NCBI GenBank assembly: GCA_021842405.1
Contig: JAKBZR010000013.1
Location: forward strand, 1 to 51,700
Direction of reading: 5' to 3'
DNA: 51,700 bases
DNA from: a bacterium
GTDB taxonomy: Bacteria; Armatimonadota; Chthonomonadetes; Chthonomonadales; JAMCWF01
Shown here: piece by piece, positions 1-18,075 of the stretch
How positions within the stretch are numbered: the stretch's first letter is position 1
Layout of the letters: each line of letters begins with the position of its first letter
The notes under the pieces: model-generated
Told to the model about the DNA's origin: nothing
Databases searched by the model: none
Seen by the model: the letters and a program-made list of their open reading frames with translations, nothing else
Made by a program: the position numbers and the translations under genes

Positions 1-37
1 TTAATTGGACGTAATTACCAAAAGACGCAATTTGCAT
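1..37 (-). CDS. possible start of next gene in the Cys-rich peptide operon (partial)
   Basis: Reading the minus strand, an ATG at 35-37 is preceded about nine bases upstream by a GGGGA ribosome-binding-like stretch. It opens a frame that stays open for the twelve codons left before the window edge (MQIASFGNYVQL). It follows the hairpin at 52-87 and the cysteine-rich peptide gene on the same strand, so it could be the next gene of that operon. Twelve codons are too few to recognise a family, and this may be chance. Confidence 0.25.
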   Translation of the reverse strand, partial: MQIASFGNYVQL

Positions 38-51
38 CGAGATTATTCCCC

Positions 52-87
52 AGTATCAAGGGTGCTGAGAGCAGCACCCTTGATACT
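52..87 (-). terminator. perfect 16-bp hairpin downstream of the Cys-rich peptide gene
   Basis: Positions 52-67 and 72-87 are exact reverse complements (16 bp arms, 4-base loop). The hairpin starts ten bases after the stop codon of the minus-strand cysteine-rich peptide gene. No T-run follows on either strand, so it is not a textbook Rho-independent terminator. It could be a leaky terminator or an mRNA-stabilising 3' structure. Confidence 0.55.
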
Positions 88-97
88 TGACACGAAT

Positions 98-550
98 TCA
101 GCACGGTTGGCTATAGACGGCCGGGTTACACGAAAAAGTACCGCAGTCGGTGTATGGAGCCTTGCAACTGAAGCTGTCACAAGTGAATTGCGAACATGTT
201 AGATCACGCAAGTAACAATCGTAATGCTGGCCACCTCCACCACACCCAAATATTTCGCAAGTTACTAGCGTGCTGCTACATGTGTAGTTTTGACTGCAAA
301 TGGATTGCGGGTTGATGGCATAACGGTGCAGCCCCTTGGCGACATCATCACCCATACCACGAATGGATTGCATCTCGTTTACCCGATCCATTGCCCGCGC
401 CATCACCGAATCGAACGTAACCGCGCCGAACAGAGCCGCAACCGCCGCCTTAATCGCGACATCGCTGATGAATTGCCGCCGAGAAAGGTCATCTTTCTCC
501 CCATCTTGCTTGCCCTGCAGCATCGGTTTCTCTTCCTCATGGGTTGACAT
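98..550 (-). CDS. Tat-type exported cysteine-rich peptide with CxxFxC repeats
   Basis: This 150-residue protein has a polar N-terminus, a twin-arginine-like motif SRRQF (23-27) and a hydrophobic stretch around 31-45, which together resemble a Tat signal. Its last 66 residues hold 11 cysteines (85, 91, 98, 103, 112, 119, 124, 129, 136, 141, 150). Four of the intervals follow CxxFxC (98-103, 119-124, 124-129, 136-141), and a GGGG run lies at 104-107. The start is well supported by AAGGAGG about eight bases upstream. It overlaps the upstream 109-residue gene by 14 bp, suggesting coupled translation. I do not recognise the family. A modified peptide (RiPP) precursor, a disulfide-rich secreted protein and a metal-binding protein all fit; no maturase is visible because the operon runs off the left edge. 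Confidence 0.75.
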   Translation of the reverse strand: MSTHEEEKPMLQGKQDGEKDDLSRRQFISDVAIKAAVAALFGAVTFDSVMARAMDRVNEMQSIRGMGDDVAKGLHRYAINPQSICSQNYTCSSTLVTCEIFGCGGGGQHYDCYLRDLTCSQFTCDSFSCKAPYTDCGTFSCNPAVYSQPC

Positions 551-866
551 TCTCTTTTCCTCCTTTTTGGGCTCTTGTCTCTTTTAAATCACCGTCCGAC
601 TGCTCAATGGATGCATTTGATCCGTTTTCACTTACACCCATCGGTGCATCACTACTTAATCCTCTTAGGCGCTCCAGTACCGCCTCCGCCAACAGATTGA
701 TCTTTTCCCGCTCATCAATCTTCCGTACAACCGCCTCCGCGATCCTCTCCACGATGAAAGCGTCCGCATCATCCATTCCATGATCGGCGCCGGCAGCCGG
801 AACTTCGCCCTCCCTGAGGCCGCTCTCGCCGGGTGGATCTTCCGTGTTTAGCGCTGTCTTATCCAT
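537..866 (-). CDS. small acidic hypothetical protein
   Basis: This 109-residue protein is first in the minus-strand operon and overlaps the cysteine-rich peptide gene by 14 bp. Its first 30 residues are acidic and probably disordered. Residues 34-70 look like amphipathic helix (FIVERIAEAVVRKIDE followed by LLAEAVLERL), and the tail is polar and charged. There is no signal peptide or membrane segment, so it should be cytoplasmic. I do not recognise a family. Its position suggests it acts with the cysteine-rich peptide, for example as a partner or chaperone, but that is inference. The start has a GGAG about eleven bases upstream. Confidence 0.6.
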   Translation of the reverse strand: MDKTALNTEDPPGESGLREGEVPAAGADHGMDDADAFIVERIAEAVVRKIDEREKINLLAEAVLERLRGLSSDAPMGVSENGSNASIEQSDGDLKETRAQKGGKENVNP

Positions 867-1054
867 GTGCCATCATCTCCACTATTGTTTTGTGCGCTCA
901 GATTGAAAAATGAAGAACCGTTTCGCTCGTCAACCGCTTACGCGGGACAAGCGAATCAAGACAGGTGTAGGAGGCCTGAACAACAGGGAGCAGCTTAACG
1001 GCCTCCGGGTTCGGCGCTTATCTTGCATATCGCCGAACTTTGGAGTTGATCATT

Positions 1055-1089
1055 TTCCGATCAGGCTGATCGGTGCGGCCTGATCGGAA
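1055..1089. repeat. 12-bp perfect inverted repeat
   Basis: TTCCGATCAGGC at 1055-1066 is the exact reverse complement of 1078-1089, with an 11-base loop that itself contains TGATCGG. No T-run follows. It may be an operator or an RNA hairpin. Confidence 0.55.
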
Positions 1090-1372
1090 CCATTTGATAT
1101 TATCGTCTGGTAGCAGCTTGTGGGAATTCCAGCGCCGGTTTCCGCTATTCGCCCGCCTGCCCCAACGATTGTTTAAATGATAATACGGGGGGGGCGTTTG
1201 TCAATAGTTAATTAGTACTATTATATGGTACGAAAGTACTATAATAGATTCAATTAATATGCAAAATAATTAATAAATAGCTTCGGAATTATTGGGAACT
1301 CGATTTTCATTCCTTCACGATAGTCCTATGTGCTCGCCTCCGCTTCAGCCGGCAGGCCGTATCCCACTAAAT

Positions 1373-13680: not shown

Positions 13681-14397
13681 ATGCCCTATTTGGATTGCAA
13701 ATACATTGATATCTCTTCAGCGGACGGGTCGGCAATGAGGGCCTATGCAGCCCGGCCGGTCGGGAGTGGGGCGCCGCCGGTGCTGCTTGTGTTTCAGGAG
13801 GCGTTTGGGGTAAACGCTCATATCCGGCAGGTGGCGGAGCGATTTGCCGGCGAATTGGGTTGCCTGGCGATCGCGCCGGAGCTGTTTCATCGAACCGCAT
13901 CCGGTTTTGAAGGGGACTACAACAATTTTGCCGGAGTTATGGAACACGTGCGGGCGCTCACCGAAGAGGGACTGACGGCAGATTTTACCGGGGTTTACAA
14001 CTGGATTCGGGGCCAGGAATCGGTGAATAGCGAGGCGGTGGGCGCAGTGGGGTTCTGTCTGGGAGGGCGCGCGGCGTTCCTCTGCAACTCGGTATTGCCG
14101 TTAAAGGCGGCGGTATCCTATTACGGAGGCGGCATCGCGCCGGGCCTGCTGGGGCGCGCTTCGGCCATGCACGGGCCGATCCTGCTGTTTTGGGGCGGAT
14201 TGGATCAACACATCGGGCCGGAACAGACGCGCGCGGTGAGCGATGCGCTTCGTGAGGCGGGCAAAAAGTACGTGGCGGTGGAGTTTTCCGATGCCCAGCA
14301 CGGCTATTTTTGCGATGTCCGCCCTTCCTACAATCCGGCCGCCGCGAGCCAATCCTGGGTGCTCACGGTGGAGTTTTTTAAGGCCTACTTGAAATAA
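13681..14397 (+). CDS. dienelactone hydrolase family protein
   Basis: This 238-residue alpha/beta hydrolase has the dienelactone hydrolase signature: FQEAFGVN with Glu40, the nucleophile Cys126 in GFCLGGR, Asp175 in GGLDQHI and His207 in DAQHGYF, giving a Cys-Asp-His triad. Length is normal for the family and there is no signal peptide. Such enzymes open dienelactones or related esters; the actual substrate here is unknown. AAGGAGG lies ten bases before the ATG. It is monocistronic, with dnaA downstream behind its own promoter. Confidence 0.9.
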   Translation: MPYLDCKYIDISSADGSAMRAYAARPVGSGAPPVLLVFQEAFGVNAHIRQVAERFAGELGCLAIAPELFHRTASGFEGDYNNFAGVMEHVRALTEEGLTADFTGVYNWIRGQESVNSEAVGAVGFCLGGRAAFLCNSVLPLKAAVSYYGGGIAPGLLGRASAMHGPILLFWGGLDQHIGPEQTRAVSDALREAGKKYVAVEFSDAQHGYFCDVRPSYNPAAASQSWVLTVEFFKAYLK

Positions 14398-14546
14398 CGC
14401 GGATTCTGCCTCGAGGGTAATCGGCATGCCGTGCCCTTACAAGAGGGGTGTGAGGCCGATGTATGTGCTGAAAGACGACTGCTGGCTGTGATAACTCGGA
14501 TAAAGAAATTTTAATCGGCGCCCTCGTGAATTGATCGGCCGAACGG

Positions 14547-14575
14547 TTGAATGACGGCGGCAGCTATGTTATAAT
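14547..14575 (+). promoter_or_regulatory. sigma-70-type promoter of dnaA
   Basis: TTGAAT (14547-14552) and a perfect TATAAT (14570-14575) are 17 bases apart and end 29 bases before the dnaA ATG. No clear TTATCCACA-type DnaA boxes are seen in the 200-bp gap. Confidence 0.7.
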
Positions 14576-14604
14576 GGGCGATCGGATGGCTGTTGGAGGG
14601 CTGT

Positions 14605-15987
14605 ATGAGCGAACAGCTTCGCATTGATGATGATGATTTTTCGATTGCTCTACGTCGGACTTGGGAGCGTGCGCTCCAGCTTTTATCGGTTAAGGTCAGC
14701 ATAGTTACCTACGAAAGCTATCTGCGGACCATCCACCCGATCTCCTGGAACGGCACCGAAGTGGTTTTAGGTGCGCCCAGCCCATTTGCGCGCGAATGGA
14801 TTGAAAAGCGGTACAGCAACAACATCCGTGCCGTTTTGGAATCGTTGTTTGAAAAGACGGTCAAATTGCGGTTTGTCGTCACCGAGGATGCCGATCCGGC
14901 ACCAACCATTGAGCGGTCGGCTCCTCGGCGGGTGGCGCGCGCTACACCGGATGCTCCTTCGCTGCCGCTGAACGAGAAATTTACCTTTGACCATTTCGTG
15001 GTCGGGGATTCCAATCGTCTGGCTCAGGTCGGGTCAATCGCCGTATCAGTGGAGCCGGGTAAAACCTACAATCCGCTCTATCTTTATGGGCCGCCCGGCG
15101 TCGGTAAGACCCACCTGCTTCACGCGATCGCCCACTCATGCTTCGAGCATAAGCCCGACATCCGGGTGGCCTACGTATCGGGGGAGCATTTCACTCAACA
15201 CTATCTGCTGGCCCTTCGTGAAAACCGGACGAATGAGCTTCGTCGCCGAATGCGCGGGGTTGATGTATGGCTCGTAGATGATGTGCAGTTCATCGCTGGA
15301 AAAACGTCCACCAAAGAGGAGTTTTTTCACACTTTTAACACGCTGCACCTGTCCGGTAAGCAGATCGTGATTTGCAGCGACCGCAGCCCCCGTGAATTGC
15401 GCGAAATGGACGAAAGGCTCCGCTCCCGTTTTGAATGCGGGCTGATTGCCGACATTCAGATGCCGGAATTTGAGACCCGGCTTCGGATTTTAAAACATCA
15501 TTGCAAGGAAAATCGTTATGTCATCCCCAATGAGGTGCTCGATGAACTGGCCTCCGCCATTCAATCCAATGTGAGAGCCCTCGAGGGCGCGCTCGTGAAG
15601 CTGGTGACCTACGCCTCGGTGATGTCGAAACCGATTGATATCGAACTGACCCAGCGCATCCTTTCCGAGTACTTGATCACCCGTCCAGCCAGCTCCGTCA
15701 CCATCACTTGCGATCTGGTTATCCAAAAGGTTTCCGAAAGCTTTGGAGTGCCGCCCGATCAGTTGCGGAGCGCCCGCCGAGACAATGATATCTTGTTGGC
15801 CCGGCAGGTCGCGATCTATCTATGCCGTGAATTCACCTCGTGTTCATTGAAAAGCATCGGGGTGGAGTTCGGCGGACGTGACCACACCACGATCCTTCAT
15901 TCCATCGAGCGGATTGAGCAAAAGAGTTCATTGGATACCCAGCTCCGGCACCGAATCGATTCGTTACGCGATGAATTCAGGCGCTGA
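14605..15987 (+). CDS. dnaA: chromosomal replication initiator DnaA
   Basis: This 460-residue protein has all four DnaA regions. They are a domain I-like helical region (about 12-95), a short linker (95-125), the AAA+ domain with Walker A GPPGVGKT (162-169) and Walker B WLVDDVQF (Asp225-Asp226), and the DNA-binding domain IV (about 363-460) with the GRDHTT signature (424-429). The ATG at 14605 is chosen because GGAGGG ends four bases before it; a longer TTG start would overlap that site. It initiates replication at oriC. dnaN, its usual neighbour, is absent: the next gene is convergent and unrelated. Confidence 0.95.
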   Translation: MSEQLRIDDDDFSIALRRTWERALQLLSVKVSIVTYESYLRTIHPISWNGTEVVLGAPSPFAREWIEKRYSNNIRAVLESLFEKTVKLRFVVTEDADPAPTIERSAPRRVARATPDAPSLPLNEKFTFDHFVVGDSNRLAQVGSIAVSVEPGKTYNPLYLYGPPGVGKTHLLHAIAHSCFEHKPDIRVAYVSGEHFTQHYLLALRENRTNELRRRMRGVDVWLVDDVQFIAGKTSTKEEFFHTFNTLHLSGKQIVICSDRSPRELREMDERLRSRFECGLIADIQMPEFETRLRILKHHCKENRYVIPNEVLDELASAIQSNVRALEGALVKLVTYASVMSKPIDIELTQRILSEYLITRPASSVTITCDLVIQKVSESFGVPPDQLRSARRDNDILLARQVAIYLCREFTSCSLKSIGVEFGGRDHTTILHSIERIEQKSSLDTQLRHRIDSLRDEFRR

Positions 15988-16065
15988 TCCCGCTTAATAG
16001 CTCACGGCGCCCCGAATATCCTTTCAGCGGAAAGAGGGGGCTTTTCCACCGGCTGAGTTTGCCCA

Positions 16066-18075
16066 TCACTGGTTCCAGCCGAGCCGGCCGTTAATGGAGA
16101 TCGTGTAGGTGGCATGGCGGGTATACATCGCCATAACCGCCCACAGGGTCTCCACCACGAATTCGCCCAAGATCACGCCCAGCGCCGCATTCCGCAATCG
16201 CTCATAGCCGGGCAGTCCGTAATATCGCGTTACAAAAACCTTGATGAGCAGCACCACCACCAGTCCGAACCAGTAGTAATCAAGTCCAAAGTTCATCGCT
16301 AGTGCGTAGCCGGCCGGGTGGAACGGAAATCCTGGATAACGGAAGCGGATCATATCCAATACCATTACAACCAGTAAGCCGGATAAGACCGCCGAGATCG
16401 CAACTGGATTGGGAGGTCGCCGATTATCTACTAAATCCGATACGGTGCCGACCGTGCCGGTCCCAAATCCAGCCCCATATCCCCAGCTTCCGTATCCAAA
16501 ATGGTAGTTCAGATAGATGCGGGTAAGATGGCCGACCACAACGCCCACCACCGTCGCCAGCAACACGGCGGCGAATATCAGCAACTGGCTGACGCCGCTG
16601 GATTCGCCCATCTTCATCGATTCGAGTTGAGAAGGCATCGGGTCATCGCGGTGAATTCGGTTCATAAAATAAAAGGTGGTTACCACCCGCGTGATGGTCG
16701 CTTCCTGTACCGTCTGAGTTCCCGCGAAATCCACAAACATTTGATTGGGCCCCATGAAGGCCATTTCGTGAGAAGGGGCACCAAGCTGCGCGCGCAGTCT
16801 CGTCACCGCAACGGCAAAAACCAGATACAAAGCGATATAGATTACCACCAGCCAGAAAGCGAGACCGATCGAAACACCGATCCATCCTAACAGGGCGACG
16901 CTGATGATTAAGCCGGCAAATGCAGCGCGGTGTGAAATCTCTCCCTTGCGCCGAACTCCTCGTTTTATCTCATCCCAAACCTCGCGCAGATAGCTCCGCG
17001 CCACCCAGAGCGCGCTGATAAATAGCCCGATGAACGCTCCCCAGGACTGCTCACTCAGGTAGGGCGGTCCTGGAACCAGACCTCCTCCCCCGAAAACCCC
17101 CTGGTTAATGCCGAAAGCGGACACCACCACCTGCTCCCCTTTCCGCACGAAGAAGAAAAAGATGCAGGAAAAGAGGAGGTCGGTCGGCATGAATACACCG
17201 ATCGCCGCAATGTAGGGAAAGATGCCGATCGGCGTCCACCCGATTGAATTCCAGGGTGGTGAGGGGAACCAGAGCGAAAGATCGCCCATAAAACGGACAT
17301 TAACCCAGGGAACCGAGGGATAGAGAAAGTGAAAACCGTTCAGCAGGTCAATGGCGGCCATAATGGTGAAGCCGCCCCAAACGTACCGGTTCTTCCAGAA
17401 CGGAGAGCGGCCGCCCCCGGCAATAAGCGCCATCGGCAACTGGATAATTGGAAATGCCAGCCTTTCGCGTCGTGTCCATTGATCCCTCATCAAGCTGTTG
17501 ATGCAGAGCATCGAGAAGCAGACCAGCGAGACGATCGCGCTCCAGCCCAGCACCGGCCGCCACCACATTCCCAAGTGATGTAAGGCATAAGAGAGCGAAT
17601 ATCCGCCCATCTCGATCGCCCGCAGATGCTTGTCGCTCTTGATGTAGAGAAAGCTGGAGATGTAGGGCAAAATGTGGTTTTTAATGGTGGCATCGTTGTT
17701 GGCATTGATGGCATAGGTCACGATGTAGTTGTTGATCATATCCATCCATTCCGATGACATCACGCAAACGACGGTTTGCATCACATAGAACACCACCAGT
17801 TCGCCTTCTGTGAAGGCCAGGCGGGGCGCAAAACGTTGAAGCAGCTTATTGATAAGAACGATCGCGAAAGTGATCATCACCGGTGGAACCATCAGAGAGA
17901 ATATTCGGTCCACCACCTGTGCGGAAGCCCAATAAGTGCAGACCGGTGTGAGGATTAGAGCGAGCAGGATAACACGAAAATAGCGGAGGGGGGATGTGCG
18001 CCTGGGAATGACTTTTTCGGCCGGTTTCTCAGGTGCCACGAGCACCGGCTTACCGGCCGGTTGGGGTGAAATCAC
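16066..18075 (-). CDS. large polytopic membrane protein (DUF6785/DUF6784-like, OPT-like)
   Basis: This 669-residue protein has well over ten hydrophobic segments spread along its length. After a short Pro-rich cytoplasmic N-terminus it contains TEGELVVFYVMQTVVC (about 93-108), a conserved region in large membrane proteins annotated as DUF6785/6784 and found often in Armatimonadota and Planctomycetota. They are distantly reminiscent of oligopeptide (OPT) transporters. A transport role is therefore plausible but unproven. The start is GTG with AAAGGAG upstream. It lies 222 bp downstream of the dehydrogenase gene on the same strand. Confidence 0.7.
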   Translation of the reverse strand: MISPQPAGKPVLVAPEKPAEKVIPRRTSPLRYFRVILLALILTPVCTYWASAQVVDRIFSLMVPPVMITFAIVLINKLLQRFAPRLAFTEGELVVFYVMQTVVCVMSSEWMDMINNYIVTYAINANNDATIKNHILPYISSFLYIKSDKHLRAIEMGGYSLSYALHHLGMWWRPVLGWSAIVSLVCFSMLCINSLMRDQWTRRERLAFPIIQLPMALIAGGGRSPFWKNRYVWGGFTIMAAIDLLNGFHFLYPSVPWVNVRFMGDLSLWFPSPPWNSIGWTPIGIFPYIAAIGVFMPTDLLFSCIFFFFVRKGEQVVVSAFGINQGVFGGGGLVPGPPYLSEQSWGAFIGLFISALWVARSYLREVWDEIKRGVRRKGEISHRAAFAGLIISVALLGWIGVSIGLAFWLVVIYIALYLVFAVAVTRLRAQLGAPSHEMAFMGPNQMFVDFAGTQTVQEATITRVVTTFYFMNRIHRDDPMPSQLESMKMGESSGVSQLLIFAAVLLATVVGVVVGHLTRIYLNYHFGYGSWGYGAGFGTGTVGTVSDLVDNRRPPNPVAISAVLSGLLVVMVLDMIRFRYPGFPFHPAGYALAMNFGLDYYWFGLVVVLLIKVFVTRYYGLPGYERLRNAALGVILGEFVVETLWAVMAMYTRHATYTISINGRLGWNQ

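Follow-up and report, generated by a model that had tools for sequence, protein, structure and literature searches.

What does the small Cys-rich gene at the left edge of this contig encode, and which enzymes act on its product? The window analysed here (51,700 nucleotides) is a complete contig (G000:C170) from a draft genome of 3.5 Mb, so there is nothing to the left of base 1 in the assembly and the operon is cut at position 1, as an earlier note on this DNA had pointed out. That note suggested a new class of peptide that is exported and possibly modified, whose maturation genes would lie left of position 1. Our own answer, to which we assign a probability of about 0.7, is that the gene encodes the precursor of a ribosomally made protein that is modified by a radical SAM enzyme. 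No product has been observed; both export and modification are inferred. The features lie on the minus strand throughout:

98..550, minus strand: precursor of 150 aa with a Tat-type leader, a recognition helix and a Cys-rich core (open reading frame; family present in 13 of 291 genomes from the phylum)
470..484, minus strand: twin-arginine motif SRRQF, residues 23-27 (RRxF invariant in 9 of 9 aligned homologues; TatC encoded in the genome)
314..415, minus strand: recognition helix of the leader, residues 46-79, related to the partner helix (hhalign E 8.5e-5)
101..298, minus strand: precursor core, residues 85-150, with 11 Cys and six aromatic-x-Cys units
537..866, minus strand: acidic partner of 109 aa, a leader-like helix without a core (a partner-like gene adjoins the precursor in most homologous loci)
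660..773, minus strand: conserved partner helix, DDADAFIVERIAEAVVRKIDEREKINLLAEAVLERLRG (partner alignment A5, compared with the leader)
559..564, minus strand: ribosome-binding site AGGAGG of the precursor (from the sequence)
about 52-87, minus strand: 16-bp hairpin directly 3' of the precursor stop (fold -39.1 kcal/mol, z -4.6)
867..1353, minus strand: upstream non-coding DNA, 97% identical to a second locus of this genome on contig C32
1204-1177, minus strand: promoter-like TTGACA-16-TATCAT within the upstream non-coding DNA
1180-867, minus strand: predicted structured RNA (314-nt transcript, z -4.2)

The anatomy given in the earlier note was recovered throughout. The twin-arginine-like signal SRRQF lies at residues 23-27, the last 66 residues (85-150) contain 11 Cys, the four CxxFxC units are CEIFGC, CSQFTC, CDSFSC and CGTFSC, the precursor (98-550) overlaps its acidic partner (537-866) by 14 bp and the strong ribosome-binding site AGGAGG precedes the precursor ATG. 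We propose that partner and precursor would be co-translated. The hairpin at 52-87 had not been mentioned before; it is a possible attenuator or terminator, and there is no T-run immediately 3' of its stem. The upstream non-coding DNA (867-1353) is better conserved between the two copies in this genome than the coding parts, and an Rfam search of this region returned only a chance miRNA match with 22.8 bits (cut-off 62).

The units of the window core are YTC, FGC, YDC, FTC, FSC and FSC, i.e. an aromatic residue stands at position -2 in 6 of the 11 Cys compared to 1.5 expected (shuffle p = 0.0005). For the other homologues, taken individually, the corresponding values were 0 to 0.0005 of 2,000 shuffles. 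When a loose motif filter was applied to the 319 open reading frames of at least 45 aa in the window, one other frame passed (464 aa, 4 of 8 Cys). Across 13 homologues we observed F, Y, W or H at -2 in 78% of 299 Cys (F alone in 60%) against a background of 16%, and the information at this position was 1.62 bits compared to 0.45 bits at the next-best position. Five peptides from other phyla gave similar values, with an aromatic residue at -2 in 77% of cases and 1.82 bits. Over both sets position -2 thus carries 1.6-1.8 bits and any other position at most 0.56. The real signature is [F/Y/W/H]-x-Cys and not CxxFxC, which is merely the tightest packing of this more general unit. About 22% of the Cys lack an aromatic residue at -2, which we count against the main reading. 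Asp or Glu at position +4 of Cys occurred in 9% of cases compared to a background of 11%, and we found no comparable enrichment of Asp/Glu or Asn/Thr acceptors at fixed positions of the kind seen in known ranthipeptides. Precursors that bear the repeat are 138 to 591 aa long, and their cores contain 10 to 60 Cys.

Cys-rich peptides with adjacent aromatic-Cys repeats were encountered at L199 (3150-3686), L200 (4885-5499) and L197 (7381-7692), where they adjoin prepilin and/or radical SAM genes of the enzyme clade described below; the adjacent repeat is a sister variant of the aromatic-x-Cys motif. At L043-L046 (G097) and L048 (G090) the same Tat leader is followed by very short tails ending in CCN, CCT, CCGS, YCEQ or CPCS, and multi-haem cytochrome-like proteins are encoded at some of them as well. 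In the short-tail precursors the leader has a second use, one that involves no aromatic-x-Cys repeats.

The genes missing from the window are present in the paralogous locus on contig C32. Here the order is partner, a 157-aa Cys-rich precursor, a DUF1559 prepilin, the SPASM protein rSAM_A (382 aa), a second SPASM protein rSAM_B (542 aa) and a GT2 glycosyltransferase. The DNA identity to the window is 97% for the upstream non-coding region, 91% for the leader and 86% for the partner, but only about 50% for the core. The genome holds two precursor copies with one leader and two different cores. The expectation of maturation genes to the left of position 1 is supported: the near-copy has two radical SAM/SPASM genes directly downstream of its precursor, with the caveat that the window locus is without an intact maturase in the assembly. 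Further downstream of the C32 cluster (L004, 524-4307) lie genes for two Gfo/Idh oxidoreductases, each with a Tat signal at its N-terminus, and for an ApbE flavin transferase; these genes are not conserved at the other loci read. Elsewhere in this genome, on C40 (L019/L020, about 13956-17102) and C112 (L021, 10414-13800), Rhs/YD-repeat proteins with Cys-rich C-terminal tails are followed by small unknown genes and a relative of rSAM_B, so that the same arrangement occurs twice; the rSAM_B relative is truncated in C40 and has an altered C-terminus in C112.

In several genomes of the phylum the genes run partner, precursor, DUF1559 prepilin (in the taxonomic order of the window and some others) or a propeller-like protein (G097, G264, G276), then rSAM_A. 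The enzyme was found at the locus in G000, G005, G007, G250, G264 and G097; the other loci are cut by contig ends. Counted against the main reading are G015, where partner, precursor and prepilin are present in a genome that is 92% complete and no rSAM_A was detected at E 1e-45, and G005:C13, where the precursor has no rSAM nearby. A single contig, G005:C76 (L038), carries the locus twice in tandem; in the second of these copies frameshifts, either natural or from the assembly, interrupt the frames of both precursor and rSAM_A. Neither precursor nor partner matched any Pfam or NCBIfam model above cut-off, spore and sheath structural families included, and a plasmid collection contained no match to the precursor.

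In rSAM_A the cysteines of the radical SAM motif (CxxxCxxC) and of the SPASM region are invariant. The closest solved structure is CteB (5wgg, E 5.8e-64). The best NCBIfam model is PapB with 231.9 bits, and three members scored 232, 216 and 264 bits with this equivalog (NF047865), all below its cut-off of 340; rSAM_A remains below every NCBIfam maturase cut-off. Both CteB and PapB belong to the thioether-forming ranthipeptide group (PMC11002830). A leader-like helix at the N-terminus of the rSAM was considered and dismissed as unsupported, with 7 columns only.

The six closest relatives of rSAM_A in named genomes each adjoin an aromatic-x-Cys gene. Their hosts include Sumerlaeota, Poribacteria, Chlorobiota, Planctomycetota, the archaeon Methanoperedens and one further bacterium. 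The peptide of Methanoperedens is short, with 72 aa and four units. For the next 74 relatives, largely SCIFF-type clostridial enzymes, we found no adjacent aromatic-x-Cys gene, and the viral contigs held no relative of rSAM_A. Overall the aromatic-x-Cys relatives span at least six phyla, the archaeon included. In a tree of 43 enzymes a clade of 17 rows (SH-aLRT 91), separate from the SCIFF maturases, comprises 12 of the 12 rSAMs beside aromatic-x-Cys peptides and 4 of the 4 beside aromatic-Cys peptides (L199, L200 and L197 among them); one member only, L198, is unpaired, and it sits at the end of a contig. As relatives in at least six phyla adjoin one radical SAM clade, the window gene probably encodes an enzymatically stapled peptide that is exported through Tat, with the chemistry itself not shown. 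The earlier note would have been refuted by homologues that all lack an enzyme partner or by a match to a structural protein such as a spore or sheath component. Neither outcome was seen: the radical SAM/SPASM gene sought near the homologues is of the same clade across phyla, and together with the C32 genes this supports a new class of peptide that is exported and possibly modified, without demonstrating the modification.

We infer that rSAM_A acts on the core and would cross-link the Cys of the aromatic-x-Cys units in the cytoplasm. The bond is likewise inferred. The leading candidate, nearly an even bet, is a thioether between the Cys sulphur and a carbon in the side chain of the Phe or Tyr at -2, with the sulphur chemistry deduced from the enzyme clade and the acceptor from the motif. 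It is unlikely that the bond is instead triceptide-like, with a ring carbon of aromatic residue i joined to the beta-carbon of the Cys at i+2 and the thiol left for disulphides or metal. The motif has exactly the three-residue spacing of such cyclophanes, and each of F, Y, W and H is known to act as an acceptor in cyclophanes (PMC11002830). However, the models of the cyclophane maturases (YhhB, GrrM/OscB and FxsB, cut-offs 310-445) give only about 56-57 bits with rSAM_A compared to 232 bits with PapB. Its close relatives also pair with aromatic-Cys peptides, and this i, i+1 spacing has to our knowledge not been described for cyclophanes. Furthermore, the review of triceptides reports no Cys at X3 (PMC11002830).

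Besides the C32 gene the genome has just one rSAM_A, a truncated copy at the very start of contig C66 (L017, 737-1267), preceded by a prepilin and cut after about 155 aa, in the first half of the barrel, without the SPASM region. It adjoins a helicase-like gene of opposite orientation. The window ends past the precursor and C66 opens with a prepilin followed by rSAM_A, both of them pointing outward, from which we infer, as the simplest case, that the two contigs adjoin. This link remains an inference from matching incomplete operon ends because there is no sequence overlap: between window base 1 and C66 no common word of at least 12 bases was found within the 400 bases compared. The C66 copy is likely the window locus's own broken maturase, absent from the window and truncated. 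The window copy might accordingly be a decaying duplicate of the C32 operon that lost its maturase and is now inactive, and the fragments of rSAM_B on C40, C112 and C171 agree with such decay. We consider this doubtful, as precursor, partner, ribosome-binding site and upstream region are intact, the core motif is still above chance and the intact C32 rSAM_A could serve the window copy in trans.

In a profile comparison with hhalign the conserved helix of the partner aligned to the leader helix just past the Tat region (E 8.5e-5) with a score of 24; none of 200 column shuffles exceeded 15.2, and none of 150 shuffles that kept the hydrophobic class exceeded 18.2. When inspected by eye, the Planctomycetota precursor has a leader (HRLEVREKLRTVAEMF) that also resembles the partner (RKIDEREKINLLAEAV); the profile search did not report this likeness. 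Given the helix similarity the partner is probably a stand-alone leader module that helps the precursor to meet its maturase, an inference from sequence. On the same grounds, leader helix and partner copy would bring the chain to the SPASM enzyme rSAM_A.

The window precursor reached 15.1 bits with the Tat model TIGR01409, just below the cut-off of 16.7. It met the test for a Tat substrate, RRxF[LI] followed by a moderately hydrophobic stretch of 15 residues (mean hydropathy 1.97), and the genome encodes TatC and four secretins. On inspection the Chlorobiota and Poribacteria precursors have RRxF plus a lipobox-like LSGC/LGSC and look like Tat lipoproteins; their loci hold a YjbH-type envelope protein. 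The peptides of Sumerlaeota, Planctomycetota and Methanoperedens have no Tat leader, which counts against the main reading. Radical SAM reactions belong to the reducing cytoplasm and Tat carries folded substrates. Cyclised peptides are regarded as too bulky for the narrow Sec route, and Tat has been proposed as the alternative (PMC5686179). The stiffened chain would be hard to thread through Sec and, judging from the conserved RRxF leader, may exit via Tat. The product may then end in the envelope or on the surface, and in many loci the co-encoded DUF1559 pseudopilin may help; both its role and the final function are inferred.

The precursor could also be an ordinary disulphide-rich or metal-binding secreted protein, with the radical SAM enzymes acting on another substrate such as the prepilin. 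A Cys-rich, exported chain is what one would expect in this case, and within the taxonomic order the prepilin equals the enzyme in its constancy as a neighbour. But no prepilin separates the enzyme from the adjoining aromatic-x-Cys gene in Chlorobiota, Poribacteria, Sumerlaeota and Methanoperedens, and across phyla the motif follows the enzyme clade, which leaves this explanation improbable. About equally improbable is a diffusible antimicrobial or signalling RiPP: the two copies in this genome, alike in leader but diverged in core, do resemble diversifying bacteriocins, but the family includes proteins as large as 400-591 aa that contain 31-60 Cys, the loci read showed neither an ABC exporter nor a peptidase, and the lipobox-like motifs together with the pseudopilin, YjbH-type and glycosyltransferase neighbours favour a surface or envelope product.

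Among known systems the ranthipeptides (freyrasin PapA/PapB, SCIFF/CteB, QhpC/QhpD) share a Cys-rich precursor that adjoins a SPASM radical SAM gene of the QhpD/CteB/PapB type. Ranthipeptides of the PapA type have Cys-X3-Asp/Glu, whereas the window family has aromatic-x-Cys instead, a Tat leader and precursors of up to 591 aa; in addition rSAM_A starts about 35 aa before the barrel, while the matched part of CteB begins at residue 95. The triceptides (XncB, OscB, MscB/FxsB, YhhB) share a repeated aromatic-X-residue motif with i, i+2 spacing, but in the window family the third residue is Cys and the maturase falls in another clade; a Tat leader is not described for triceptides in the review (PMC11002830). 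We therefore filed the window family as a variant of radical SAM RiPPs under neither class, given that the CX3D/E motif and the PapB cut-off failed for ranthipeptides and the enzyme family for triceptides. Work on lanthipeptide phage display likewise found cyclised peptides to be poorly moved by Sec and suggested Tat; the attempt was engineered and unsuccessful (PMC5686179), whereas the Tat leader of the window family is native to the precursor. In the literature, with most subscription journals outside our coverage, we found no paper that combines radical SAM with an 'FxC motif' and none that joins twin-arginine, RiPP, leader peptide and radical SAM.

The widest claim stays tentative, at somewhat less than even odds: in several bacterial phyla and an archaeon, dedicated radical SAM enzymes would staple tens of aromatic-x-Cys units in the cytoplasm on proteins of up to 591 aa, which would leave by native Tat export and form covalently hardened surface structures. 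If true, aromatic-x-Cys would be a new cross-linking motif for radical SAM peptide chemistry, and the use of Tat instead of Sec would be a natural answer to how pre-cross-linked chains cross a membrane. It would also suggest that radical SAM stapling makes large envelope proteins and not only small antibiotics.
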